Shown: piece after piece, positions 899 through 59,993 of the stretch | Layout: each line of letters opens with the position of its first letter | How positions within the stretch are numbered: the first letter of the stretch is position 1 | Assembly: GCA_039583875.1 (NCBI GenBank) | Contig: CM077162.1 | Coordinates: forward strand, 109,463,808 to 109,527,807 | Source: Platanthera guangdongensis | Taxonomy: Eukaryota > Streptophyta > Magnoliopsida > Asparagales > Orchidaceae | Reading direction: 5' to 3' | Length of the DNA stretch: 64,000 nucleotides | Notes under the pieces: model-generated | What the model was told of the DNA's origin: nothing | What the model saw: only the letters and a program-made list of their open reading frames with translations | Databases searched by the model: none | Program-made: the position numbers and the translations under genes

Positions 899-1475
899 GG
901 GTTACCATAAACACTCCTCGGTTGACCGTTGTCCCTATTGAAGTCCAAGTGCTTAACCTTGCACTGGATAACAACATCATATCTGGACAACCAGTCCATG
1001 CCCAAGATCACATCAAAATTATTCAGGTCTAACACCTTCAAATCTGCAGCTGCTAGAAAATCACCTAAGAGAATCAGAAAACTCTGACTACATTGGTCCA
1101 ATACCACAGAATCACCAAAAGGAAACTTGACACTAAACGCGTCACCAACCCGATCGAGAGTCAAGAGATGACACTCTAATAAAACTAGGGAAGGATCTAA
1201 CCTGATATCACTTGAGTAGATGTATGAGCTTCCTCCAACGAAACCACATTCAGCTTGCCCTTTCCCTTGTCCAACTTTTACGGCGGTGGCAAAGCCTGAA
1301 GTGGAACTGGTTGCAACAGTGGCTGAGTCTGCAGGCACTGTAACTTGAAATGTCCTTCTTGTCTGCACTGAAAGCAGCCTATTTTCTTTACCCAACAATG
1401 GGTAGCATCGTGCCCCTTCTGCTTATACCCAAAACAAACTAAATCCCCTTTAGGAACACTTTGTATCACGTGCAC
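850..1475 (-). pseudogene. Gypsy A zinc knuckles and aspartic protease region
   Basis: Two overlapping frames read, in order, two Gag zinc knuckles and a retropepsin-like domain. The first knuckle 'CFGYKQKGHDATHC' has Tyr in place of the second Cys; the second, 'CFQCRQEGHFKLQC', is a complete CX2CX4HX4C site for binding element RNA. Then comes the protease region with the C-terminal signature '[14 protein letters not shown]', which is typical of plant gypsy proteases. The catalytic DTG at its start is not evident in frame, and a stop and a frame change separate the knuckles from the protease. This region joins Gag to the reverse transcriptase at 898. Identification rests on these motifs; the exact domain edges are inferred. 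Confidence 0.8.
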
Positions 1476-2430
1476 CTGCTCTTGCTTCTAAGCCCCTATC
1501 CTCTTAAAGCACTTCTCGAACCGATGGCCCGGTCGACCATAGAAACTGCATGCTTCGTTGCTTTTCTTCCTTGAAGCAAAACTCTATTCCCGAATACTCT
1601 TGCCCTCGTCAGACTTTCTCTTATCTTTTATTATTTGCTGACCTCTATTCTTGGCGTTATCAATCGCCTCGACCTTCAACGCGGACTCTACCACTTCAGC
1701 ATAACCTTTTAATCTGTATGCACTAGCTAGCTGCATCATGTCACTCCTTATACCACCCAAAAAATGTTTAACCCTACTGGCTTCAGAAATAACTAAATCC
1801 GAAGCGAACCGGCTCAGCTTACTAAACTCCACTTCATACTCACTCACAGTGAGTTGTCTTTGCATTTAGTGTAGAAATTCATCCATCAGACCGTCCCGCT
1901 CGACCGATGGCAGAAACTTCTTTAACAACAGCTCATTGAAAGATTCTCAAGTACAACCATCCTTTAGATTTTCCTTTTCTCTCGGCCACCAATTCTTTTC
2001 CAAGCCCTTCAGCTGATATGCAACAATCAATACTAACTGATCGTCAGAAACTCCTGAGTATGAGAACATCTCCTCGAATGTTATAAGCTAATCATCCAAA
2101 ACCATGAAATCCGCTCGACCATCGTATGAAGGTGGTCCTAATTGCTGGAAATGCTAGATAAAAGTCATCTTTGGTGGCAACAAGACCAGAGGCACCAGAG
2201 GAGAAGGGGGAGCAAGAACAGTTAGACCCATAATAGGGTCCTGCACTCTCCACAGCTGTCCTAACACAACAGATAATAACACTTGGATCTGCATCTGCAT
2301 CTCCACCAATTGTCCAGACAAAGTCTCATTACTCTACCGCAGACTTTCGATCACTACATTACTCTGCGCACCCGAAGACTCGCCCTCTGACTGGGCAGTC
2401 AACCTAGTCGCTACGTGCTTAGGTGCCATC
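1476..2430 (-). pseudogene. Gypsy A gag relic
   Basis: Capsid-type Gag, the structural protein that packages element RNA. An open stretch at 1584-1865 reads 'LTVSEYEVEFSKLSRFASDL', the C-terminal motif of the plant retrotransposon gag domain. Upstream on the minus strand the similarity continues in pieces interrupted by stops and shifts up to a likely ATG at about 2430, which opens 'MAPKHVATRLTAQ'. The region between 1476 and 1584 links to the zinc knuckles. It is too broken to be translated as one protein. Start choice is by position only, just inside the leader and near the primer site. Confidence 0.7.
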
Positions 2431-3102
2431 CTACAAGATCAACAAACAACTAATCAAAACCTAGACGAACCGCTAGAACTAAACAACACAGTCCAAAAAA
2501 TACATGGTTAAGTACTTGATAAAGCTGCTAACTTGCTCTAGGATTTTCAATAATGATGTCATGCTTAACTTAGGATGATATTCCATCAACCTATTGACTC
2601 GTGTACATAAACCTTGAATGCATGAATTTTCATTCCTTTTACTTCAAAACCATGTGTGTGCATATGTCATCATGCATACCTTTAGCTTGACACGTGTGTT
2701 AATGCTATGTTATGCTATGCATGTTGTTCTATGCATTCTAATAAAGACCTTAATGCATGTTATGAGCAGCGTATACATGAAATGTTATGCATCCAATACT
2801 ACATAACATCTCATGCAACGAATGAGAAAACACGCTAATGAGCATCCATGTGGTGATGGTTAAACATCCCATACTACATAACCGTCACATGTTGCCACCT
2901 ATGGTGGATCCATATACAAACACATATTATGTATCCCATACTTCATAATATGCCCCCGTATACTTCTTATCATGCTTATGAGTGTAGTGTTCATGCCTCA
3001 GCCAAGACATAATGATGATACATCGGTGTGTGTATGAAATGATGCTAGAAGACTTAAAAAAACCTGAGATAGCTATTCGACGAAATTGTCAAACAACCTA
3101 TC
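2431..3102 (-). other. Gypsy A untranslated leader with short repeats
   Basis: No coding signal. On the plus strand the block holds AT-rich sequence, repeated ATGCAT/TGTTATGC words (2600-2770) and three spaced copies of a 'CATCCCATACTACATAA'-like phrase near 2788, 2866 and 2932. It lies between the primer site and gag of gypsy A, so it is the leader that would normally carry the packaging signal. Confidence 0.6.
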
Positions 3103-3114
3103 CCTCTGATACCA
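3103..3114 (-). other. Gypsy A primer-binding site (tRNA-iMet type)
   Basis: On the minus strand this reads TGGTATCAGAGG, the usual plant retrotransposon site for the 3' end of initiator tRNA-Met. It starts two bases inside the LTR end at 3117, which fixes the orientation of gypsy A as minus. Confidence 0.9.
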
Positions 3115-4778: not shown

Positions 4779-6857
4779 TGTAACACCGCCTATCCGTCGT
4801 ATAGCATATAACACTATGCCCGGCAGGGGCCCGACGCCATATACCACAGATAGAACAGAAAGTTACTTACCATCCAACTAAGAATCAATGTCCTACACAG
4901 AGTGCATTCTGGTGGAAGCAATTTAAAAGTTGCAATAAAATAGAACCCAGCCAAAAGCATGAATGTCCACTAAACAAAACCAGAAGGAATGAACGTACAA
5001 TACACCAGTACTTGGCCTTATGGCCTTACAATAGTTTACTCAAATTAAATTGTTTTCCAAACCTCGGCACGAAGGCCGGTCATACATGAATAATATAAGT
5101 AAACATTTATTTTTAGGCCTTCGAGGGCTGGATCAGCAACATGGGCTTCTGCCCGCTATTTACCACTTGGCTCCGCAGCAGCTGAAAGCAACAATCCATC
5201 ACAACGGTGGAAAATAAAAGCAACAAACAACTATGTTGACCAAATTATAATGACCCTGCCGCCAAACTTGTGGCGGCGATGCTACTTCCCTGCACTTTAT
5301 TAGCATAACCAAGCAGTATAGTGTAAAAACACTTCATCACAGGCGTAGGCATGCACGTCCATAGACCACGTGCTCTCAGGGCACATTCTCGGTGAACAAG
5401 ATAAAAGTCCGCTGACTCACCACCGCCCCTAGGACGGCAAATTCTCGTGAGCATTATGGTCTTTCCGGTCAATGCCTAAGACCCTCCATCTATGTCAACG
5501 TCAAGTGCCACGCACCTTTAGGTCTCTTTAACCGAAAGACATAGAGTGGGTACGGTTCCGCCTAACGCATTGATCACACCACCCTATCACCTTAAGAAAT
5601 GGGCGCGGGTCAAACTTCCCCGAGTCCCAATCCGAATCACACACTTCAAATAACCCAGTTATATGCAAGTTGGATCCCAGGCCACAAAGTTGGCAGAATC
5701 ACGCATTTGCCCAGTTTTTCGGGTGCACCTTGGAGTTAGTCCCCTAGGCTCCCTGTTGCAATCTACCAGTAGAAAACCCGAAAAACAAACATCCACACGG
5801 AGTCTTCTCTAGCCATTCATGCAATGCAACATCACCGATCCTGACCAACCTGTCCGGGTAGGCTTCACACATCATGCCTATGTTCGTTTCTCGATTACGG
5901 ACTCTACATACTAAACAACGGGGACTATTCATGTCTACCTGAAGGAACGCCTCACACTCACCAGAAAATCGCGAGAGCAGGCTTCCAATGCAAAGGAAAA
6001 GAGGACTTCACATGTCCTAGGATAAGAATCGTTACCCTAGCATTCCTCTTTGGCGCCATGGAAATCTATGCGGATGAAAAACACCACAATGACCTCGCCT
6101 CCGTAGATCCGAAGTTGGCTCACGATTTGGAGCTCTGAAGCTCCGTCGGCGGCTGGATCTATCTCCCTTCTTCTTCCTTGCTCTCCCCTCTCTCTAGAAC
6201 TTTAGATAGAGAATAAACCAAAGAGATTGAGGGTTTCCAACCCTATTCCTGGGTATAACACAGTAGGAACAGCCCTGAACCGTTGGATCCCGAAAAGAAT
6301 GGAATGGACGGCCACGATTTGGGCTTGAAATCCAAAACCTGGGACAAACACGGCTTGTGACACGCCCGTGTCCAAGGTCGTGTGCCCCATTTGACGTCGA
6401 AACCGTCACGTCCCAAAAAGTACACAGGCTCTCGACACGCCTGTGTCCGACTTCACACGCCCATGTCATCTAGTACATGGCCGTGTAGTGGGACGTGTTC
6501 CTACATCGACACAGGACCAACACCAACCCGTGAAGAACACGGGTATTGGACACGCCCGTGTCCCAAATGACACGCCTGTGTTATACCCGAAAACGCCTGT
6601 GCTCCAGGCCATGTTTCACCCCTACCACAACTCGGCTAACCACCCGAGTAGGACAGGGCCTGGGACACGCCCGTGTCTCAGGCCGTGTTCGCTGCTCGAC
6701 GATCGTCGACTGAAATTCGTCGACTACACGGCCATCATCAAACCCGAGCACGACATGTCCCCGGGACACGCCCGTGTCCCAGGTCGTGTGACCCTTACAA
6801 GTTCCAAACTTGTCTAAAAACACCACCCGTCGCTCTTTTGAGTTTTGGGGCATTACA
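4779..6857 (-). repeat. Gypsy B 3' LTR (left copy)
   Basis: Starts TGTAACACC and ends GGGGCATTACA on the plus strand. It aligns along its full length with 11734-13819. A dyad block lies at its right end (the U3 side in element sense). Other parts are unique LTR sequence without genes; small open frames here are not conserved between the two copies. Confidence 0.93.
6340..6800 (-). repeat. Dyad array in gypsy B left LTR (ACACGGGCGTGT words)
   Basis: Repeated GACACGCCCGTGTCC units (plus strand) near 6361, 6551, 6665 and 6767, with variants near 6436 and 6566, mixed with CAGGCCGTGT half-units and one TCGTCGACTG patch near 6706. In element sense the block starts about 70 bp into the LTR. The same block is at 13320-13760 in the other LTR. 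Confidence 0.9.
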
Positions 6858-11733: not shown

Positions 11734-13819
11734 TGTAACACACCCTATCTGTCGCATAGCATGTAGCAGTACGTCCGGCCGGGGCCCAATTTCATATACC
11801 ACAGACAGACCGGAAGGTTACTAAATGGAAATCATCCAACTAAGAATCAACATACTACACATAGTGCATTCTAGCGGAAGCAATTTAAAAGTTGTAATAA
11901 CATAGAACCCAGCCAAAAGCATGAATGTCCACTAAACAAACCCAGAATAAATGAACGTACAGTACATCAGTACTTGGCCTTATGGTCGTACTATAGTTTA
12001 CTCAAATTAAAGTGTTTTCCAAACCTCGGCATGCAGGCCAATCACACATGAATAATACAAGTAAACATTTATTTTTATGCCTTCGAGGACCGGCTCAGCA
12101 ACATGAGCTTCTGCCCGCTATTTACCACTTGGCTCTGCAGCACCTGCAAGCAACAATCCACCGCAACGGTGGCAAACAAAAGCAACTGTCATCTATGCTT
12201 ACCAAATTATAACGACCCTGCCACCAAACATGGGCGGCGATGCTCCTTCCCTGCACTTTGTTAGCATAAGCAAGCAGAATAGTGTAAAAACACTTCATAA
12301 CAGGCGTAGGCACGCTTGACCACACACCCCGTGCTCTCAGGGCACATTTTCGGTGAACACGGTCAAAGTCTGCTGACTCACCACCACACCTACGACGACA
12401 AATTCTCGTGAGCATTATGGTATTTCCGGCCAATGCCTAAGACCCTCCATCTATGCCAACGGCAAGTACCACGTACCTTTCGGTCTCTTTAATTAAATGA
12501 CATAGAGCGGGTATGGTTCCGCCTAACCCGTTGCTCACACCACCATGTCACCTTAAGACATTGGCACTGGTCAAACTTCCCTGAGTCCCAATCTGAATCA
12601 CACACTTCACATAACCCAGTTATGTGCAAGTTGCTCCCAGGCCACCAAGTTGGCAGAATCACGCATCTGCCTAGTTTTTCGGGTGCACCTTAGAGTTAGT
12701 CCCCAAGACTCCCTGTTGCAATCTACCCCATAGAAAACCCGAAAAACAAACATCCGCACGGAGCCTTCTCCGGCCATTCATGCAATGCAACATCACCAAT
12801 CCAGACCAACTTATCCGGGTAGGCTTCACACATCATGCCTATGTCCGTTTCTCGATTACGGACTCTACATGCTAAACAACGGGGATAATTCATGTCTACC
12901 CGAAGGAGTGTCTCACACTCACTGCAAACTCGCGAGAGAGGGCTTCCTATGCAAAGGAAAAGAGGACTTCACATGTCCTATGATGAGAATCGTCACCCTA
13001 GCATTCCTCTTTGGCACCATGGAAATCTAAGCAGATGAAAAGCACCGTAATGTCCTTGCTTACGTAGATCCAAAGTCGGCTCACGATTTGGGGCTCCGAA
13101 GCTCCGTCGGCGGCCGGATCTATCTCCCTTCTTCTCCTTGCTCTCACCTCTCTCTAGAACTTTAGAAAGACAATAACCAAAAGAGAATGAGGGTTTCCAA
13201 CCCTATTCCTGGGTATAACACAGCAGGAACAGCCCTGAATCGTTGGATCTCGAAAAAAAAGGAAATGGACGGTCACGATTCGGGCTTCAAATCCAAAACC
13301 CGGACCGAACATGGCTTGTGACACACCCGTGTCCAAGGCCGTGTGCCCCATTCAATGCTGAAATCGTCGCGTCCCGAAAATCACACGGGCTCTCGACACG
13401 CCCGTATCTGACTTGACACGCCCATGTCATCCAGTACACGGCCTTGTAGCGGGCCGTGTTCCAACATCGACACGGGACCAACACCAACCCATGAAGAACA
13501 CGGGTATTGGACACGCCCATTTCCCAAATGACACGTCGGTGTCATACCCAAACACGCCTGGGCTCCAGGCCGTGTTTCTCCCCCGACACAACTCAGCTAA
13601 CCACCCGAGTAGGATACGGCCTGGGGCACGCCCGTGTCTCTGGCCGTGTTCGCTGCTCGACAATCGTCGACTGAAATTCGTCAACCACACGGCCATTGTC
13701 GAACCCGAGCATGACACGTCCCTGGGAAACACCCATGTCCTAGGCTGTGTGACCCCTACCAAGTTCCAAACTTGGCTCAAAATGCCACCCGTCGCTCTTT
13801 TGAGTTTCGGGGTGTTACA
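11734..13819 (-). repeat. Gypsy B 5' LTR (right copy)
   Basis: Starts TGTAACACACC and ends GGGGTGTTACA on the plus strand; homologous end to end with 4779-6857. In element sense it begins at 13819 and would drive transcription leftwards. It contains the dyad array at 13320-13760. Small open frames inside are chance products of the repeats. Confidence 0.93.
13320..13760 (-). repeat. Dyad array in gypsy B right LTR
   Basis: Second copy of the block at 6340-6800: GACACACCCGTGTCC, GACACGCCCGTATC, GGCACGCCCGTGTCTC and GGAAACACCCATGTCC variants with GGCCGTGT half-units. Several differences from the left copy are transitions at CpG sites. Confidence 0.88.
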
Positions 13820-38799: not shown

Positions 38800-39175
38800 T
38801 GTAGCTCTAAGACCCCCCTCCCCCTTACCAAGGTGGCTACCGGGTCTAATGCCAAGAACCGCTGTCATACGGTGCCACCAATACATGGGTTAGTCGACAC
38901 CGCAACACGCCGATTCTGCCGGCTAGTACGATCATAAACTTGTAGGCCAATAAGAGAAAAGAAGTATAGCGGTAAAAGAAAACCACAACAAGTCCATAGT
39001 CACATCACATATATATAATATATGAAAGGAAAATGTCAGTCCAAATGAGTACAGAAACAAAATGGAGAGTAATAAGGGCTTATGACCAGTATATCAAATT
39101 AAATCTCTCTCTCTCTCAACTCTAAACAGCGGAAGATATCTATCATCATCAAGTTATCCCACCTGAGGTAACTCT

Positions 39176-39201
39176 GCAGTAGTAGTAGTAGTAGTAGTAG
39201 T
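39176..39201. repeat. AGT/TAG trinucleotide microsatellite
   Basis: About eight uninterrupted AGT units within the gypsy C LTR. Confidence 0.95.
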
Positions 39202-39608
39202 CGGTGGTATCAGCTCCTCACGTCCTACCATCTCGTCTCGCTGGTCGTGCTGGTACTCCATCTCCTCGAGCTCCTAAAAATAGTTTGGTCACCAACCATT
39301 AGTCAAAAAGACTAAGTCATTTAATCCACACCTCGCCCCGCAACTCCTAGGCACCGTGCGGGAGGACGAAGCGGAGGACAACAAGGGGTATCAAGTATAA
39401 ACAGGTGGCAGTGGCACTACGCTAACAAGTAAATGAGGAGTAATAGTGATTCTACTCTAGCAGTTCTATGTATGATGAACAAGTACAGTAAGTAAGGTAT
39501 AAAACTGAGTAAGTAGAACATGTGCAGTACGGTAAAGTAAGTAAAGGACAGAAATTAAGAGTAGGAAAGTAAAACTAAGCTACCACTACTCTATCATCAC
39601 AAATCGTA

Positions 39609-39704
39609 CCTTAACTTATAAAAATGCCCATACAAATTTATAAGTTAAGGTCTACAGGAAATGTAACCTATCATATAAAAGAGACCATACTAATTTATAT
39701 GATA
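39609..39704 (-). other. Paired hairpins in gypsy C LTR (14-nt loops)
   Basis: 39609-39650: perfect 14-bp arms around the 14-nt loop AATGCCCATACAAA (element sense TTTGTATGGGCATT). 39669-39704: perfect 11-bp arms (TATCATATAAA/TTTATATGATA) around a 14-nt loop, element sense TTAGTATGGTCTCT. The same pair, in the same order in element sense, is at 56234-56334 in gypsy D. Confidence 0.9.
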
Positions 39705-40204
39705 AAAAACTATAAAGCGTATGACCTAATATGAATGAATTTTTATGATGCAAATTATGCACAGGCAAGTGCAACTCACACACAACGACTCTGTGATCAC
39801 ATACCTTTAGTTTCCACTTTTTGAGAGCTAGTTTCACTCTCGGGTACCACTGCTGTGGCTACGGCAGCAGCGGAGCGAGCATCTCCACTTCTAGGCCGGT
39901 ATGCACACTACCAAACCTTAGACCCCTCTCATACGCCTCTGTACACGTCCAAGGTGCACTCTAGAGTCTATGCGTACATATTTTGCTAACAACCCGTCAG
40001 TCTTGTTGGGTCGGATGTGCGTTATCGTGGATCGTCCTCCAGACCGCAGTGTAAAACAACCTACTGGCCCCTCTAACCCTCACACCCGCCTGGTGCACCG
40101 TACTGCCATCGGTGTGATGAACGGCCAGTACCGTATGCCCCGCCACTAAATTAATGCACAAGCAAGTATTTCATCCCGAGCCTTCAGCTCGCAGTACCAA
40201 CCTG

Positions 40205-40340
40205 TCCTGAATCCCTCGAACCCTACACGGGTGAGCATTTATCACAATCCCTCCAACCCTGCACGGGTGAGAATGCACAATAGTTCCTTTATTCCAAATC
40301 CCTCAAACCCGTCACGGGCGAGAATGAATCACAATGTCCT
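40205..40340 (-). repeat. Tandem repeats in gypsy C LTR (CCCTCAAACCCTGCACGGGTGAGAAT type)
   Basis: Three degenerate units starting near 40210, 40250 and 40305, each with AATCCCTC.AACCC then CACGGGTGAG. Position relative to the hairpin pair is comparable with the repeats at 55632-55977 in gypsy D. Confidence 0.75.
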
Positions 40341-41927
40341 AACCTATTAGACTACTCTTGTATACGGATTATTATAGTTAGCGATTTAAGGTTAATCCAT
40401 GGACTGCCCAGGGTATACCCGGTGAAGGGCTCTCGGGGGCACTAGGAACTATGATGGGATTACGCCCAAAGCTCCCTTTATCAAGGATATTTACTTTAGT
40501 TGATGGCTACCCAATATTCACCCTCAGCTCTCGTTATTACTCTTGAGTGATCCTAATGACTTAAGATGTTCTCAAAAGGACGACGGTCTTCCGCCGGCCT
40601 CCACTCCAGATGCTATCCAAGGTTTGCACTTTACTCTTATCACTAAGACAACTATATCCACCAGGACCATATTCCAATTGAAGTCTCTAGCTCATTTATT
40701 GATCTATCCCCCGGTGGTCCATACAACATGACCTACTTCACTATGCGCAACTCATGACCTAATACCACCCCGAAATGGAACTTCCAATTCCTTGGGCCAC
40801 AAGCCCTTAATTATTTATCCTAGTACGGTATGGACTAATGAAGTGAGCATATTGATTTTCATAATTTTTCTAAGACATTAAGCCTCTAATTAAATTATTT
40901 AATTAATCCCCTAGGTCATTTAATACATGAAGTATGACAATTTATAATCCACTGATGAAAGGAATTTTTCTTGAGTTATATCTTGGTGAAATATTGTTGT
41001 CTATCAAAATTTATAATTTTCCTTTGAATATTTCTATTTATTCCTTAATTAATACAAAATTAATGCAATTGTCATTTTCCAAATGAAGTATAAGGAATAC
41101 ATTTCTAAAAATTCTAGGAAAATTTCAAAACATATGTATTAGGAATTTAAGGCTAATGGCAGAGTTGCATCAACATTTACAATGTAATGGCCTACAAATT
41201 TCAATTCTTAATAATTTACCAAAATGCCATTATAGGGTTTTAAAAATTACTGATTAATTCACAAATTCTGAGAAACTTATACAACGTTATTCATACTCAG
41301 ATAAATCATCAAGAATTTTTCCAAAATTTTCTACTAAGTAGTTTCACCAATTTGCTAATTAAGTAAGATGAGGGTAAAAAAGTAATTTCCACATAACTCC
41401 TATCAAAATTCTTCAAATAGAGACAAAACTTTTCAGGAGTTAAATCTAACATAATATTGACCTTGACAAAAATTGGGGGTTTTATCTCAAAGAAGACCTA
41501 TTTTTACATTTATTTTTCAAAAAGGATAATTATTCCAAAAATTCCAAATAATGAGAGTTTTGCTTCCAAAAATCCCATTATTACAATGTGGGGTATAATT
41601 CACCCTAAAGGTCCTCTGAAATCAATATCATGATTTTTGAATGTTCCAAATAGGTCTAATACACAATATATTAAAATTGGCTATTTGCACCCCAAGCCTA
41701 TATATAATCAACACATGCATGTGAGTTTACCCAACATGCTTTGGTCCAAATGTGCTGACATTTTTACCATGAACATGAATTGTCCCCATGGACGTGCCAC
41801 CAAAATTGTGGGCCATTTGGAGCCATAACACGCCAAATATTTCATTTATTTAAATTTGTGTATTATGAATAACACTATAGAAAACGTTTTCCCAAAAATT
41901 CCCAATTTTTGGCAGGGGCTAAATATG

Positions 41928-44441
41928 CCCTAAACATGCATGCACCCAAAATTTGGGGACATGTTGCTTACTGGTTTGGCTTGGGCATCAAATTGAAGTT
42001 CTGCCCTTGCCTAGGACCAGCCCTAGGAAAAATGACCTACATGGCAGTATACTGCACCAAATTACATGTTTAAGGTGGGAATGTAAAGTTAATACATTAA
42101 GCTACAATTTTCATGGAAGGTACATGACCGGGAAATGCCTCTAAGAGGCCTAAATTAACAATGCAATGTGACTGAGATAGTGTGATAGATATATATTTAT
42201 ACACTATAGTTTATACATTTGATTTGATTACTGTTGAGCACGAATCTTAAAGTAATATAAACAGAATCCGGTCATCGTTCCAAAATGGCCAACGGTCCAG
42301 ATTGAATCTGGCTGGCCACTTTTGCTGGCTGATTCCGGCCAGCTGAGCCACCACGACCGCGGCGAATGTCGCCACCACCTTCACTGAGGTGGCGGCTAGT
42401 GGTTTTCAGCGATGAGGCCGCCAGAATTGGCTCCTCCGGTGAACCCGAGCAAGAAATAAAACTTGGAATAATCTCATTTTACTCTCATGGTATCGGGCTC
42501 AATTGAGCCCGATGTCTCTCACTAAAGATCTAGACATCTAGCACGAGTAGAGGGGAGGCGAAACGGACCCGAATGGCGGCACGGCAGCGAGGTTGGCGGC
42601 GGTGGGCCATGGATGAGCTGCTCTGGCGAACTCCTGCTCAAATCCTCGATTCTCCACCAAAAGCTTCGCTCCAAGACTCGTTCTCCACTCGATTCTACCC
42701 TCTAAAGGTGATGGTGTGGTCAAATTGTGCTGAATGTGACTGTATAGGGTGATACCATCAAGGTGAGCTCGGTTTGGGGCTTTGGAGGCTTCACCCTTGA
42801 TTCCAAGTGGCCCCCATGCTGCCAAATTCCCTGGGAATTCTCTGAGGAGGCCAGCCAACACAATTTGGGCTGATGGAGCCAAGGCCAAGTGGCCTCTTCT
42901 TCTTAACTCCCCTTCTCTCTCCTAAAATTCCCACTTTACCCTCATGCATGTGTCCCTCTATTCAAAACCAGAGGGTAGGGGTGGTCATTGTCCATTTGGG
43001 GTGGCCATGGATCAGGTTTGGTGGGCTTGGCCCAAAGGGTGTGGGCTTAGCCCTCATTTTCTCCTTTAGGTTAATTAGGTTGACTTGGGTTGACTTGGTC
43101 AACCATGATGAGTGGGCTGACCCCACTTGGTGTTCATGGGTCTAATGGCACCACCCAACTTGGGTTGGGTCAATGTGGTGCCCTAAACATGCATGCACCC
43201 AAAATTTGGGGCCATGTTGATTACTGATTTGGCTTGGACATCAAATTGAATTTATGCCCTTGCCTAGCACCAGTCCTCGGAAAAATAACCTTCAGGGCAC
43301 TATACTGCACCAAATTACATGTTTAAGGTGGCAATGTAAAGTTAAGACATTAAGCTACAATTTTCATTTAAGATGCATTCCGTGTAAATGCCTCTAAGAG
43401 GCCTAAAATTGCCATGCAATATTGCTGAAATAGTGTAACGGATTTATATAATACTATAATTTATATTTGATTTAATATATATGATATGCACGAATCCTAA
43501 AGTATAACAGACGGGATCAGTTCATCGTCCCCAAGTGGCCAACGGTCCATATTGAATATGGCTGGTCACTTTTGTTGGCTGATTACAGCCAACTGAGCCA
43601 GCACCACCGCCGGCGAATGTCGCCACCACCTTCACTGAGGTGGCGGCAAGCGGTTTAAGGCGATGAGGCCGCCGGAATTGGCTCCTCCGGCAAACCCGAG
43701 CAAGAAATAAAACTCGGAAAAGTCTCATTTTCCTCTCATGGTATCGGGCTCAATTGAGCCCGATGTCTCTCCCTAAAGATCTAGACATCTAGCACGAGTA
43801 GAGTGGAGGCGAAACGGACCCGAATGGCAGCACGACGGAGAGGTTGGTGGCGGTTGGCCATGGATGAGCTGCTCTAGCGATCTCTTATTCAAATCCTTGA
43901 TTCTCCACCAAAAGCTTCGCTCTAGGACTCGTTCTCCACTCGATTCTACCCTCTAAAGGTGATGGTGTGGTTGAATTGGGCTGAAGGTGACTGTATACGG
44001 TGATACCATCAAGGTGAGCTCGGTTTGGGGCTTTGGAGGCTTCACCCTTGGTGCCAAATGGCCCCCATGCTGCCAAATTCCCTAGGAATTCTCTGAGGAG
44101 GCCAGCCAGCACAATTTGGGCTAATGGAGCCAAGGCCAAGTGGCCTCTTCTTCTTAACTCCCCTTCTCTCTCATAAAATTCCCACTTTACCCTCATGCAT
44201 GTGTCCCACTATTCAAAACCATAGGGTAGGAGTGGTCATTGTCCATTTGGGCTGGCCATGGATCAGGTTTGGTGGGCTTGGCCCATAGGGAGTGGGCTTA
44301 GCCCTCATTTTTTCCTTTAGGTTAAATAGGTTTACTTGGGTTGACTTGGGTTGACTTGGTTAACCATGATGAGTGGGCTGACCCCACTTGGTGGTCATGG
44401 GTCTAATGGCACCACCCAACTTGGGTTGGGTCAATGTGGTG
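41928..44441 (-). repeat. Tandem duplication within gypsy C LTR, two units of about 1.25 kb
   Basis: Unit 1 is 41928-43180 and unit 2 is 43181-44441; both begin CCCTAAACATGCATGCACCC and end ...GTCAATGTGGTG. They share the same order of segments with scattered substitutions, so the duplication is older than recent. Confidence 0.92.
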
Positions 44442-44879
44442 CCCTACTTGGGCTAATTGGGCCTATAGGTATAGGTTTGACCAAATGAGGGTCATGGTTG
44501 ACTTTGGTCAACTAGGGTCAAAGGGTTGACCTATTGGCATGCCCTAGGGTCCACTTAGATTGTTTTAGGGTTAGGGAAATGTGGTGGGGTCATGGTGTCG
44601 CTAGGGTTCCTTTTTAGGCTAGTTTGACCTAGTTTGACCTTGGCCCCTTAGTGGGCCCCACATGGCTACAATCCACTACCTAGGGTCAAACCTAGCTAAA
44701 TTCCCTATCACCCACGCCATGCCTAACCCAATCTAAGCGAAGGGGGCCTAGAAGTAACATGAGATGTTACAAATCACAATAAAAAAGAAAATAATTTCGT
44801 CCCCGAAATTTAAGTTCGGGTCTACGGGGTTCTACTTGCAAGAATTATAAGAAATTTTAAACATATAAACTAAAGTATA

Positions 44880-53548: not shown

Positions 53549-53676
53549 TGTAACGTCCTGAATCGCTCTAGGCCCCTCGTGTGTGTTTTTGAGTCAGGAG
53601 GGTTGACTCGAGTCCTGAGAAGTGTAAGGAATTGGACTGCACTTGTGGAGGAGTGGAGAAATCAGTGCAGAGAAGG

Positions 53677-54275
53677 ACACGGGTAGTGACACGGGCGTGT
53701 CACTACCCGTGTGAATGGGACACGGGTAGAGACACGGGCGTGTCCCTACCCGTATGGCAATGTGTCGAGTTGAGCTCGACGAAGCGTGTCGAGATCGATG
53801 AAGTGTGTCGACATCATATGACACGGGTAGCGATACGGGCGTGTCGATACCCGTGTGTGTCGAGTTACACTCGACGAAGCGTGTTGAGATCGACGATCTG
53901 TGTCGAGATCGACGAAGTGTATGACACGGGTAGAGAGACGGGCGTGTCCCTACCCGTGTGTGTTGAGTTGGACTCGACGAGGCATGTCGAGATCGACGGA
54001 CTACGTGTCGAGATCGACGAATCATATGACAAGGGTAGAGACATGGGCGTGTCTCTACCCGTGTTCTGTGTGTGTCGAGTTGAGTTCGTCGAGATGTATC
54101 TAGAGAAGGACACATCCAAGGACACGGCCAGGAACACGGCTGTGTCATGTGGACATGGGTCGGGACACGGGCTTGTCCCTACCCGTATCAAGTGTTGAAC
54201 CGACACTAAAAACCGTCGTAATGCTTTGCTGGAGCAGGACACGGGTAAGGACACGGGCGTGTCCCTACCCGTGTC
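53677..54275 (+). repeat. Dyad array in gypsy D LTR, about 104-bp period with 36-bp palindromes
   Basis: Palindromes of the form ACACGGGTAGNGACACGGGCGTGTCNCTACCCGTGT begin at about 53677, 53720, 53821, 53922, 54029 and 54239. The first is perfect (17-bp arms, GG centre). Between them are GTGTCGAGTTGAGCTCGACGA and GTGTCGAGATCGACGAA words. Confidence 0.93.
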
Positions 54276-54281
54276 ACTTAT

Positions 54282-54290
54282 TATATATAT
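54282..54290 (+). promoter_or_regulatory. TATA box of gypsy D LTR
   Basis: TTATATATATGG directly after the last palindrome; a likely core promoter, and the only strong TATA near the array. Confidence 0.7.
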
Positions 54291-54780
54291 GGAGTGGGAA
54301 AAAACCCTAGCGGTTTCACTCTTCTTCCTAGCCGTATTTCTGAGATAAGTCCTATAGAGAAGGAGAACTGCAGGAGCAAGTTCTAGGGAGGGAAAATCTA
54401 CCATCACTGTGAAGGAGAAGATGCCGCCAAGGAGAATTACGAGATCTATGGCCGGAAATGGAGGAACCGCTGGAATCGATGTGAGTTTCCTACCCTCTCC
54501 CTTGGTGCTAGATCTGTAGATATCTAGGCGAGATGTCGACTCAAAAGAGTCTAAACATGTGAGAAGATGCTTTCTCTAGGGTGAGGCCAATCCCGGGGCT
54601 TGTGCTCTTGGTTAGTGGGGTCTTCAACCTCTCTGATCTTCTATGTGGAGATGGGGGATGGTTTCGTGAAGAGCAAAGGTCTCATGAGGGTGAATAAGGG
54701 TGGAGGAAATTCTGGAGGTGATCCGAGAGGATCGCCTTGAGGAGGAAGACGAACTGATGCCGTTCATTCCGCCTTAAGAT

Positions 54781-54806
54781 GCGTGCAGAATCTGTATTCT
54801 GCACGC
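54781..54806 (+). other. 11-bp hairpin in gypsy D LTR
   Basis: GCGTGCAGAAT-CTGT-ATTCTGCACGC, perfect arms. A related imperfect copy is at 54974-55000 (GCATGCAGAA...TTCTGTGCGC), and both are followed by AGC.AACTTC. Confidence 0.88.
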
Positions 54807-55631
54807 AGCAAACTTCGTGGACATTTTTGGGTGTGATATGTCCAGTTCTGGGCTTTCGGCTAAACCCGAAAGTTGAAGCCCTTGAAAATACCTTTCCAAT
54901 GAATGGTTGTCGGACTTCAGGCGAAGTCTGTAGCCACGGGAAAGTCTAAATGAACATGGTGTTCAATAAATCCTGCATGCAGAAATTGTGTTCTGTGCGC
55001 AGCGAACTTCAAGTCCGATTTAAAATAGGATAACGTCAAATCTGGTTGAGGTCTGAATACGAACGTTGTGGACCACGGAAAGACCTTTCCATCGTGGGGT
55101 TACACGTCTTCACCGGATTCCTGTAGCTTCAGGAATCTCCGGTCAAAGTTGCTGTTCAGATTCAATCTGCACCTAAATTCTGGGCTTTGTATAAGATGAA
55201 TTTGGATTCGGTGGAATTAATATTGCAAGTTACTTGGCTTGGATGAACTCTTATGATTAATCATTTTTTGCATGATAGACGAAGCTTACTAATCATATTT
55301 CATATAGTCAAATTGTGAAGCAATCTTATTTAAACAAATTGACCTGATAGGAATTGAAAGATTGTTATTTGTGCGCATCATGTTTATAATATGTCGATAA
55401 CATATGGAAAGTGTGATAGATCTTCATATGCGTAACATTTTTATATCATTTTGTCATCATCTGGGAGTCATATAGAATAATAAATCATGGTCATGAGTAT
55501 GTTTGACTAATGAAATGAGTTTAGTAGTCCAATACTTAGAGCGTCGTCTCCCTACGGGTAGTATTGTGAAGGGATGTAAGTGCGGTGTTGACCGTCACTT
55601 GTTTGGTTGTGATGTGATAGGGTATGGATGG

Positions 55632-55977
55632 ATAGTTGGGCTGTATCCTCATGCTTACATCTGAGGTCCCTTCCATGTTATGTTGATGTGGCATTTGCAT
55701 GAGGTGTGAGTCGACACACGGTGTCGTAATCCTGGGTTAAGGATAGTGTGGCAAGTCTACAGGCTCGCCAGTTGTCACACCGACGGGAGTCGACAGTTAG
55801 ACTTTGGGCGGTTGGGCTGTGTCCTCGGTGTTCACATCCCGGGGCCCCTTCCGTGTCAAGTGAACGATTGGGTTGTGTCCTCATGCTCACTTCCGAGGCC
55901 CCTTCCGGGTCACGCAAGGCCAGTTCGGGCTGTGTTCTTGGTGCACATATATCCAAGACCCCGCTGGGCCATAGTAC
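55632..55977 (+). repeat. Tandem 58-nt-like repeats in gypsy D LTR
   Basis: Four degenerate units: GGGCTGTATCCTCATGCTTACATC (55638), GGGCTGTGTCCTCGGTG (55814), GGGTTGTGTCCTCATGC (55870) and GGGCTGTGTTCTTGGTG (55928), each followed by a CCGAGGCCCCTTCCG-like segment. Confidence 0.82.
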
Positions 55978-56233
55978 GCATGGGCTCCGCTGTTGTGTTC
56001 TTATCGTTGAGGCATATGGAGGCCTAGGTGAAGTAGTGTGGATACCTGCCTAGTAGTAGAAGTGCCCGTTCTACTGTCACCGCCTGGCCACGGCGGCTGA
56101 TGCCTGAGAGGTTAGCTACCTGCTCGAAAAGTGGGAACTATAATCTGTGTCGACATAGCAATTGCATGTGTGTGATCATGGGTGAGTCATTGCATAGCAT
56201 ACATAGCATTTCGTAACATTGCACAACAAGACC

Positions 56234-56334
56234 CTCATCGTATAAGTTTGTATGGGCACTCTTATACGATGAGTTACCTTTATGTAACCCAATCCTTAAC
56301 TTATAAGTTTGTATGGGCATTCTTATAAGTTAAG
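56234..56334 (+). other. Paired hairpins in gypsy D LTR (13-bp arms, 14-nt loops)
   Basis: Hairpin 1: CTCATCGTATAAG / CTTATACGATGAG (56234-56246, 56261-56273), loop TTTGTATGGGCACT. Hairpin 2: CTTAACTTATAAG / CTTATAAGTTAAG (56295-56307, 56322-56334), loop TTTGTATGGGCATT. Arms are perfect in both. Confidence 0.95.
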
Positions 56335-56446
56335 TTACTTTTCTGTTGTTACATATACTTGTTAGTTTGTTGTAGCTCTTAAATATTTGCTAGATCATGT
56401 TATTGTTACTCTTACACTACTGCCACCTGCTTATACTTCATCACTT

Positions 56447-56470
56447 GTATATATATATATATATATATAT
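56447..56470. repeat. TA microsatellite
   Basis: Uninterrupted (TA)n of about 12 units in the gypsy D LTR. Confidence 0.95.
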
Positions 56471-56987
56471 TACCCTTGTTCCTTCTCTCCGCCAGGTGCC
56501 GAGGATTCGTCGGGGAGCGGATGTGAAACCACTTTGTCGTTTCGACTAACGGTTGTTACGTATTCCTTTTTAGGAGGTCACGCCGCAGGTAGAGCAGCCG
56601 CAGACTACGCAGCAGGACAACCAGGCCAGGACGATAGGGCCTGAAGTGACGGTGCCGTCGATACCGTCGGTTACTGATGTTAGTAGCTTGATACTCTGAA
56701 GTAGCCCGTTTGGGCAATGTTTAGCTGTACTCTGATATATTGTAGAAGCATGTTTAGCTTCTCCTTTATTAATGTATTTGGACATTATTACTTAGCGTGG
56801 ATTTTGACTTCTCTTGCTTATTATAATTGGTTGGGTTGGCATGTTCTATTGATATTTTCGTAGTCGGCGGAATAGGCGTCTTGTGGTACATGTTAGCCCG
56901 TGTGCTAATGCTACCGCAAGGCGGCTGTTCCGGGCATAAGATCCCCCTTCGTGCCGTGTTTTGAGATCTAGGAGGGGGTCTTACAAA

Positions 56988-57002
56988 TGGTATCAGTTTG
57001 CC
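56988..57002 (+). other. Gypsy D primer-binding site
   Basis: TGGTATCAGTTTGCC two bases after the LTR end; the first nine bases match the tRNA-iMet site. Confidence 0.85.
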
Positions 57003-57031: not shown

Positions 57032-58084
57032 AATGGTGCCACCCCCGTTTGATTACTCAGTTTGGGGACAAGCTGACTTAGCGGAAGTAGTGGTGTGCCC
57101 ATATGTAATTCACGCTAAGTATGTCCAACTTTGACCTTAAGATTAGCCAACCTGACCATACGTTTGTGTTTTATGTGTAGATTCCAGCGCTTGTTGAGCA
57201 GGTGGGAGGCACTCTTGCGCCCTCTTTACCCACTCCCACTCAGTTCCAACAATCTGAGTTGGGGCTGACGCTCACTGCCATCCTCGATGCTTTTAGGGTG
57301 CAGCAGCCCCCGGTGTAACAACAGGACCCGAGCTCCAACTGGCTGTGCACCTTCCGGGCTCTCTACCCTCCCGCCGACCTTGGGACGGAGTCAGCCGTAC
57401 GTACAGAGGAATGGCTAGACACGGTACAGGAGTTGTTGGCTGGTTTCCGTTGCCCGGCCAACATGGCAGTGACATTGGTGGTGTCCGTCTTGGACTCACA
57501 TGCTAAGAGGTGGTGGAAGTCCCTCATGGGCTCTACCTTCCAAGGCCGGGTATACACAGAGATAAGTTGAAGTGAATTCTCGGGTGTTTTCTTTGAGCAC
57601 TTTATCCCTACATCGGCCCGAAGATGAGCTTAAGCAGAGGTTTCTTCTAATAAAGCAGGGATCAAAGTCGGTTACGGAATACCAGCGGGAATTCCAGCAT
57701 CTCATAAGGTTTGCGGATTCTTATGAGTTGGATGACAGAGGTTATGTCAAGCGCTTCTACAAAGGGCTGCGGGATCCCCTAAGGCAGTCCCTTTTGTTTA
57801 TAGCGGATGGTAGCTTGGCGGAGATCATTGATATGGCGAAAAGATTGGAGGCGGACCAGTTGGGATGCAATAAGAGGCCTACGGAGGACGTGATGGAAGC
57901 CGGCCCATGGAATAGAAGGAGGCGAGACTTCAGAGGAGGAAGAGGATATCAAAGATGTGGAGGGTGTGTCCACCGAAAATATAGAGTGGAGCATCCGGTT
58001 CCGCAGCCGCCTGCGTTGCCTCCACCACCATAGCCTCAGCAATTTCAACAACCTGAAGGGCGTCGTGCTCTGGTGTGCTTCGAA
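57032..58084 (+). pseudogene. Gypsy D gag
   Basis: ATG 57032 opens 'MVPPPFDYSVWGQADLAEVV'. The frame then stops, but a GT...AG pair at 57092-57180 would join it to 'IPALVEQVGGTLAPSLPTPT'. The capsid part follows: 'EEWLDTVQELLAGFRCPANM' and 'SHAKRWWKSLMGSTFQGRV', a shift with a stop near 57570, then the open piece 57572-58033 with 'LIKQGSKSVTEYQREFQHLI', 'RFADSYELDD' and 'FYKGLRDPLRQSLLF'. After a Pro-rich linker the knuckle begins with CFEC and is cut by the LTR of gypsy E. It is a Ty3/gypsy capsid of the type common in chromoviruses. Confidence 0.87.
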
Positions 58085-59993
58085 TGCAACATATGGGTAC
58101 TCATCGTTTCCCCATTGGCATAAAGCCGCAAACAAAAGGGAAACACAAATCCCCCCAACGGTACACAAGCCGCCACATGGAACTCTTGTCAAGGCCCCAC
58201 CCGCTCAAGGTCTTAGACCCGGGATTGCCTGCAAGCTCGACGTCTCATATCAGGATTCCAACAAACACAACTGACCGATTCTAAGAAGCCTTGCTGGACA
58301 CCACCCGCTCATGGCCTCATTGCCCGGGCTTGCCCCCATGCTTGGCATTCTCGTCAGTCTCACCGAAGGGGACTAGTCTCGCCGGTACACTCTCCACACA
58401 TGACGTGTGCGTCACGGGATAGCCAGCCGACCACGGAGACACAACCACGCCTTGGCACAAGCACAAACCAAGACAATTCCACCCTAGTCTCTCATTTGTA
58501 CTGCAGCGTTCCCGCGCACCAAGGAAACCATCTACCACTCATGCGGAGCTAACCTTATCCATCAAGGAAACCACCTACAGCCATTGAGGAGCTAACCTTG
58601 TCTGGTTCCGACTACACGTACTTACTCGAGAAAATGGGGAAAACATCACCACATCACAAACGACATCTTGCCGCAATGGGATCTCTACGAATCCTTAAAG
58701 CTCGTATGCAACATCACCGAGTCGGACTAACGGCCGCGACTATGGCTTCACACACCATGTATAATCCACTAACGGAGCAGATCTCTAATGCAAAACATGC
58801 CGGGGACGGACTCAATCGACCCGGAGGTTTCTCTTGAACCTTGGCAACCCAAACCCCTCTCATTTGAGTGTTTGGTGCCCAAAAACTAGAAAAGAAGAGA
58901 TGCTAAAACATGCATCCTAAAACCGAGAGGAGAAGTGTCGTTACCTTCCGACTCCTCTTCCTAGCCATGGTAAAATAGCTGGATGAAAACCTTCGCAACG
59001 GTCTAGCCTCCACGGATCTGGACTCGGCTCGCAATTTGGAGCACCGAAGCCTCTCCAACAGCCGGATCTCTACTTCACCTTCTTCCTTGCTCTCCCTTCT
59101 CTCTAGAATTTTAGTATGAGAAAGCTTGGAGAAGAATGAGGGTTTCTAACCCTATTCTCGGACTTAACTCCCCAAGAGCAGTCCTGGACCGTCAGATCCC
59201 AAAATAAGGGAAAGAATGGCCATGATCCGCCTGAAAAATAAAACACCTGGGCCGAACACGGCCTGCGACAAGCTCGTGTCCAGGGTCGTGTCCCCCATTC
59301 GCCGTCACAAATTGACGCGCCTGGAACAGCACACGATCATCCGACACGCCCGTGTTTGACCTGACACGCCCGTGTTTGACCTGACACGCCCGTGTTCCAA
59401 CTGACACGGCCGTGTGGTCGGCTGTGTGCCTCCATCGACACAGCCCCGAAAACAACCCGAGAGTCACATGGGTACGGTACACGCCCGTGTCCTTGCCCGT
59501 GTCTAACTCAACACACCTGGGCTCTAGGCCGTGTTCACTGTCTCGACACTTCGTCGAGCGAAGTTCGTCGACTGGATGACACGGCCTTGGACACGCCCGT
59601 GTCCTAGGCCGTGTGCTTGTCTCGACACATCGTCAAGAAAAATTCGTTGACTCCCCGGGCCGATTGTCGACACGGGGTCGACACGCCCTGAGACACGCCC
59701 GTGTCTCAGGCCGCGTGCCCTATCTCGACACATTATCGAGCACAAATGTCGATACCCTGGGCCGGTTGTCGACACGGGCTCGACACACCCTGAGACACGA
59801 CCGTGTCTCAGGCCGTGTGCCCCGTCTCGACACTTCGTCGAGCGCAAAGTGTCGACTACGTGGCCAAGTCATCGAGTCCAGCCTGACACGCCCTGGGACA
59901 CGCCCGTGTCCCAGGCCGTGTGCCCCCTACCAGAAACAAAATTTCCCTCTCAACGAACCCGAAATTAAATGGTACAAATTTTGGGGCGTTACA
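58085..59993 (-). repeat. Gypsy E 3' LTR
   Basis: Right end ...GGGGCGTTACA is secure because of the purine tract. The left end is placed at TGCAACATATGG (58085), where gypsy D gag loses similarity. TGCAAC differs from the expected TGTAAC by one base, so the border could be off by tens of bases. It shares segment order with the gypsy B LTRs, including CACGGGATAGCC...ACACAACCACGCC-like sequence and 'TCTCTAGAATTTTAGTATGAG'. No genes. Confidence 0.75.
59260..59930 (-). repeat. Dyad array in gypsy E LTR
   Basis: GACACGCCCGTGTCC/GGCCGTGT words mixed with CTCGACACTTCGTCGAGCG and TCGTCGACT words. It includes a perfect tandem of a 20-bp unit, GACACGCCCGTGTTTGACCT, at about 59344-59383. Longer near-repeats of about 110 bp (CTCGACACATCGTCAAG..., CTCGACACATTATCGAG..., CTCGACACTTCGTCGAG...) cover 59610-59900. 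Confidence 0.93.

Follow-up and report, generated by a model that had tools for sequence, protein, structure and literature searches.

Tandem hairpins with covarying stems and a conserved UAUGGG tip in three orchid retrotransposons, a possible packaging signal of plant Ty3/gypsy-type elements

The window, i.e., the whole 64-kb stretch of Platanthera guangdongensis DNA that was analysed, contains a retrotransposon (element D) in which an earlier note had pointed out two adjacent hairpins. The following parts of element D were located:

53549..56985, plus strand: 5′ LTR of element D, with ends set by eye (TGTAACGTCC ... CTTACA), the single LTR copy of D in the window
56234..56273, plus strand: hairpin D1, 13-bp stem, loop TTTGTATGGGCACT, 55.0 bits in the seven-hairpin model (model member)
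56295..56334, plus strand: hairpin D2, 13-bp stem, loop TTTGTATGGGCATT, 57.8 bits in the seven-hairpin model (model member)
56988..56996, plus strand: primer-binding-site-like TGGTATCAG, seen by eye after the LTR, which we take to be of the initiator tRNA-Met type
57572..58033, plus strand: gag fragment of element D (PF03732), which by eye appears cut near 58.09 kb

Element G, on the minus strand, appears by eye to interrupt the gag of D at about 58090. The upstream part of the D LTR carries GC-rich inverted tandem units at 53670-54280 on the plus strand (ACACGGGTAG ... CTACCCGTGT), and TCGACGA-type repeats, also in an upstream LTR part, are found at 59460-59930. The lowest folding z-scores of the window belong to these GC-rich units and repeats.

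The two hairpins of D were said to have perfect 13-bp arms and nearly identical loops, and both descriptions are accurate: the arms (56234-56246/56261-56273 and 56295-56307/56322-56334) are 100% complementary, they enclose loops of 14 nts and, when both copies are aligned, the loops differ at one base. The statement that the outer seven stem positions differ almost completely was overstated, as only 3 of the 13 pairs differ between D1 and D2, but it is correct that the changed positions still pair, since all three were altered two-sidedly (C-G to T-A, T-A to A-T and G-C to T-A). Together, D1 and D2 constitute a direct duplication of 53 bases, 83% identical and 61 bases from start to start, in which 9 of the 53 aligned positions differ (6 in the arms, 1 in the loop and 2 outside). 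When six random changes were introduced into the 26 arm bases, all 13 Watson-Crick pairs were kept in 16 of 400,000 trials. The fold of 56214-56354 has a z-score of -6.21, and none of 200 shuffles was equally good.

A search with a 19-base pattern of D2, allowing at most three mismatches, led to a site at 39.62 kb on the minus strand and thereby to a second element, E:

38808..44771, minus strand: 3′ LTR of element E, with ends set by eye, diverged from the D LTR
39667..39706, minus strand: hairpin E1, 11 Watson-Crick and 2 G-U among 13 pairs, loop TTAGTATGGTCTCT, 49.6 bits (model member)
39608..39651, minus strand: hairpin E2, perfect 15-bp stem, loop TTTGTATGGGCATT, identical to that of D2, 55.0 bits (model member)

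Of the LTRs of element E only the 3′ one is seen, with a reverse transcriptase and a weak integrase match upstream on the minus strand. The integrase match is under the Pfam cut-off; among the best 120 of 7925 matches to this stretch (7999 candidates scored), the top two proteins are from the orchids Platanthera and Dendrobium. In the stretch inspected, the hairpins of E follow the same order as those of D. No local match between the two LTRs is better than the hairpin block (103 columns, 78.6%, E = 8e-19). A global alignment of their 3′ parts gives identities of 0.64-0.72 per 50 columns in the hairpin windows, equalled by a few other windows. The hairpin block is among the best conserved parts of the D and E LTRs, not the only one. 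The second-best local block pairs 56033-56140 (plus strand) with 39808-39911 (minus strand), at 72% over 108 columns, about 100 bases upstream of the hairpins. The E LTR also contains a 1.26-kb tandem duplication (41926-44446, minus strand; 89.6% identical).

A third array was encountered in element F by scanning for hairpins with loops of 12-16 bases, which returned the two outer hairpins, F1 and F3; F2 was then recognised as a weaker hairpin in the middle:

3103..3114, minus strand: primer-binding-site-like TGGTATCAGAGG of element F, upstream of the hairpins
2912..2963, minus strand: hairpin F1, long stem of 20 pairs including 5 G-U, plus one mismatch, in the register with a 12-nt loop; 14-nt loop in the common register GAAGTATGGGATAC, 46.6 bits (model member)
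2851..2890, minus strand: hairpin F2, the weakest copy, 9 of 13 pairs Watson-Crick and 4 unpaired, loop GTAGTATGGGATGT, 45.2 bits (model member)
2773..2818, minus strand: hairpin F3, 12 Watson-Crick and 1 G-U among 13 pairs, loop GTAGTATTGGATGC, 48.8 bits (model member)
1200..2429, minus strand: gag region of element F, downstream of the hairpins, with a degenerate frame and a start codon at 2429 set by eye

The order in element F is LTR end, primer-binding-site-like stretch (3114-3103), hairpins and gag start (2429). The primer-binding-site-like stretch is one of 9 matches with at most two mismatches, where 4.87 are expected by chance. The gag region has one CCHC knuckle pattern (1335-1376), and the element carries a reverse transcriptase and is Ty3-type by eye. 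When the whole F stretch is folded at minimum energy, F1 and F3 are present and the bases of F2 are engaged in other pairs. Element F appears interrupted, again by eye, by element A, whose LTR pair lies at 4779-6857 and 11734-13819.

Covariation was assessed on these seven hairpins from three elements (D, E and F), all within the one 64-kb window. Cut in the same register, the seven 46-nt stretches give a gap-free alignment in which the loop core falls at the same position in all. In shuffle tests, which take the seven hairpins as unrelated and leave their kinship uncorrected, standard pairs fill 94.5% of the 91 cells of the 13-pair stem (0 of 500 shuffles as high), 11 of the 13 pairs show two-sided changes (1 of 500), 26 cells are altered on both sides compared to 8.2 in shuffles (0 of 500) and the covariation score is 0.857 compared to 0.242 (0 of 500). 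Shifting the partner by one to three columns lowers pairing to 36-50%. For D and E alone, all 56 cells of 14 pairs are paired (0 of 500), with five pairs changed two-sidedly (17 of 500) and further pair types reached in 72 of 500 shuffles. For F alone, 88.1% of 42 cells are paired (0 of 500), a figure biased upward because F was found by a hairpin scan, and 7 of 14 pairs are changed two-sidedly (3 of 500). Since RNAalifold adds a covarying pair within the loop (columns 19-28, A-U in four hairpins and U-A in three), the tip is best described as a closed UAUGGG hexaloop: the loop core is GUAUGGG, and the hexaloop is closed by A-U or U-A, to which is added a G opposite C (D and E) or A (F). The earlier note had taken a conserved loop on a covarying stem as the mark of a selected RNA structure. 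Because two further elements carry the motif and covariation holds across them, a selected RNA structure in what is presumably the transcribed leader is now well supported.

The specificity of the motif was examined within the window. With the seven-hairpin covariance model, the hairpins used to build it score E <= 1.2e-7, by construction, and antisense echoes aside (three D/E sites and one F site, E from 0.0018 to 0.14) no further site in the 64 kb has E < 1, the next one being 57693-57735 with E = 1.2. Up to E = 10, this model finds no copy in element A (4.8-13.8 kb), the leader of which is in the window, nor in the 3′ LTR of element G (58-60 kb). With a model of F only, the F sites themselves set aside, D2, E2, E1 and D1 are ranked first (E = 0.01 to 0.13), ahead of an unrelated site with E = 0.79. 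A model of D and E only leaves F unmatched up to E = 10, hence the homology of F with D and E rests on loop, register and position. The window has 50 GTATGG-like sites, six of which reach an enclosing-stem score of at least 9, namely D1, D2, E1, E2, F1 and F3; F2 scores 7.5, an unrelated site at 60.55 kb scores 8.5, and random sites reach 9 in 97 of 10,000 cases. Rfam gave no match in the window at its gathering threshold. In viral contigs, TTATAAGTTTGTATGGGCA had no match and ATGTAGTATGGGATGCAT had two, both with the same flanking sequence, while AARTTTGTATGGGCAYTYTT had a single match in genome contigs, in a contig labelled Deltaproteobacteria; the matches to the latter two were rejected, being by eye without a comparable stem. 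A piece of the reverse transcriptase of element G gave four pattern matches in viral contigs, none of which was confirmed.

The hairpins of D and F lie upstream of gag in what is, by sequence, the presumed transcribed leader, and those of D and E lie inside the LTR. The distance of about 1.95 kb given for the D doublet from a TATA box agrees by eye with a TATA-like stretch at about 54.28 kb. Placing the doublet in the R/U5 part of the LTR, as the earlier note did, is plausible in the case of D. It does not define the feature, as the hairpins of F are outside the LTR, between the primer-binding site and gag.

As to function, the feature may be a cis-acting RNA element of plant Ty3/gypsy-type retrotransposons, a hairpin array serving the selection of full-length genomic RNA; this is the preferred reading, put forward tentatively as it stops just short of probable. 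Two or three hairpins in a row, in the presumed leader, would present the conserved UAUGGG tip on a paired but varying stem of about 13 bp, the stems possibly acting as a stand for the loop. Repeated hairpins that expose the same UAUGGG on changing stems suggest multivalent recognition of these G-rich loops by a protein, most simply the nucleocapsid part of Gag, whereby full-length genomic RNA could be chosen for packaging and perhaps dimerised. If the leader is spliced from the gag mRNA, as the sequence hints, the signal would be kept only by the unspliced genomic RNA, as in retroviruses. In Ty1, Ty3 and HIV-1, the genomic RNA is structured at its 5′ end and carries there the signals by which tRNA is annealed and the RNA is dimerised, cyclised and packaged; the sequences required for Ty3 packaging are described as imprecisely defined, with both UTRs and POL needed (PMC11381356). 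Purine-rich loops were proposed as Gag-binding sites (PMC8096270).

Two other roles for the loop were examined. The loops of D and E are on inspection neither palindromic nor mutually complementary but alike, and F1 alone has GTAT...ATAC, so that a simple kissing-loop dimer is not indicated. Pairing of the loop with the rest of the element was also considered: a stretch at 57095-57103 (plus strand), about 100 bases past the primer-binding site of D, complements nine bases of the D1 loop exactly and was treated as chance, and CCCATA is absent from the examined stretches of E and F.

It is unlikely, although conceivable, that the array serves instead as a docking site for the primer tRNA, in which case the UAUGGG loop would pair with the anticodon loop of initiator tRNA-Met and help to capture or place the primer. 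TATGGG, present in five of the seven loops, is exactly complementary to six of the seven bases of CCCAUAA, which we assume to be the anticodon-loop sequence of the plant initiator tRNA-Met, and the E1 and F3 loops have one more mismatch (two of seven match five bases). Sites resembling initiator tRNA-Met primer-binding sites follow the LTR in F (TGGTATCAGAGG) and in D (TGGTATCAG), and GGGCCCATAACCC, presumably a stretch of the initiator tRNA and one that occurs in three papers, was counted in favour of docking. A precedent exists in Ty1, in which boxes 0, 1 and 2.1 are complementary to the T or D hairpins of tRNAiMet (PMC5454406). However, this reading, though attractive, is post hoc and the match covers six bases, and simple arithmetic gives a given 6-mer a chance of about 2% of occurring somewhere in a 75-base tRNA. 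Furthermore, the F loop bases beyond the core add nothing to the match and F3 breaks it at the anticodon. An extended version appears quite doubtful, according to which the arrays would form an undescribed class in plant Ty3/gypsy elements, interchangeable hairpins whose UAUGGG loops hold the initiator tRNA by its anticodon loop; the primer would thereby itself mark the genomic RNA to be packaged and reverse-transcribed.

Control of splicing or translation is improbable in our estimation. The hairpins could regulate the removal of an intron-like leader, or the AUGs in their loops could open tiny upstream reading frames: AUG followed by G occurs in six of the seven loops, and in D1, D2, E1 and E2 it starts frames of 5-6 codons that stop within the 3′ arm. 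In line with an intron-like leader, D and E by eye have in common GACTAAC/GACTAAT and TTTTTAG|GAG downstream, and F has TTGTAG|G directly before the gag ATG. Both versions are weakened because F departs from the short-frame pattern, F3 being without AUG and the frames of F1 and F2 extending to 21 and 40 codons. A separate observation, made by eye in four LTRs, is an ATG followed by a short Arg/Lys-rich frame and GT (54421-54480, plus strand; 58945-58968, 12997-13020 and 42610 downward, minus strand), which would suit a first coding exon within the LTR and an intron that runs through the leader.

That the array has no RNA function seems very unlikely. In such a scenario, palindrome-correcting template switches during replication would keep the arms complementary, or the array would be duplicated foldback DNA. 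Template switches alter both sides at once, and all 13 pairs are perfect in D1, D2 and E2. The energy scan (both strands, in windows of 110 nt moved by 40 and compared with 40 shuffles, of which the 70 lowest-scoring windows were listed) also lends this scenario some weight, as the antisense strand likewise folds unusually well: among the 70 lowest windows, the site at 39.6 kb appears at -6.97 antisense and -5.67 sense, that at 56.25 kb by an antisense window only (-4.34) and that at 2.73 kb by a sense window (-4.28). The antisense windows at 39.6 kb and 56.25 kb count against the strand argument, and since many GC-rich repeats score below the hairpin sites, energy by itself fails to single out the hairpins. 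Nevertheless, a DNA-level origin leaves several observations unexplained. The conserved loop is non-palindromic and the motif has a single orientation in D, E and F, always on the coding strand of the element. On this strand, the imperfect cells (of 91) comprise 7 G-U, 1 A-C and 4 other mismatches, and the sense energy is lower than the antisense energy in each of the three arrays (-39.2/-35.0, -34.0/-28.0 and -65.8/-47.9). The G-U excess over A-C (7 to 1), the lower sense energies and a non-palindromic loop always read the same way speak against palindromes or template-switch correction in DNA.

Finally, dicing of the hairpins into small RNAs is highly improbable: the stems are long and perfect and lie in a presumed transposon RNA, but with 13 to about 20 pairs they fall below the duplex length that a 21-nt plant product, such as that of a plant miRNA precursor, usually requires, and in the seven-hairpin alignment conservation is higher in the loop than in the stem.

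The short, recognisable and covarying array would provide plant Ty3/gypsy elements with a tangible candidate signal for packaging or priming. A similar model allows any plant genome to be searched for it, and it is amenable to loop and stem swaps. No description of such hairpins in plant Ty3/gypsy elements was found in the titles, abstract openings and passages covered, subscription journals being mostly outside this scope. In barley, the LTR-retrotransposon BARE has separate pools of translated and packaged RNA, and dimerisation and packaging signals are mentioned (PMC3735527). BARE is, by contrast, a Ty1/copia element, and the passages of PMC3735527 give no hairpin sequence, the word "hairpin" being absent from the text.

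The closest known structures are the packaging and dimerisation hairpins of retroviruses and of Ty1 and Ty3 (Psi/DIS; SL1a/SL3a of Ty1; DS/PAL6 of Ty3), which are also hairpins of the 5′ genomic RNA, with the function placed in an apical loop. The arrays described here differ in that two or three copies of one hairpin bear the same UAUGGG tip, in that the D and E loops are neither palindromic nor mutually complementary and in that the arrays lie inside the LTR in two elements. Gammaretrovirus packaging signals contain double hairpins with identical tetraloops, and are similar in that adjoining hairpins expose the same G-containing loop. In contrast, the loop here is no tetraloop but has 14 nts and a UAUGGG core, the sequence is unrelated and the element is from a plant. 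The A-rich loop of HIV-1 contacts the anticodon of tRNA-Lys; together with boxes 0, 1 and 2.1 of Ty1, it exemplifies additional contacts in which a short element sequence is complementary to the priming tRNA. In the orchid arrays the putative match would be to the anticodon loop of the initiator tRNA, and it is repeated over several hairpins.
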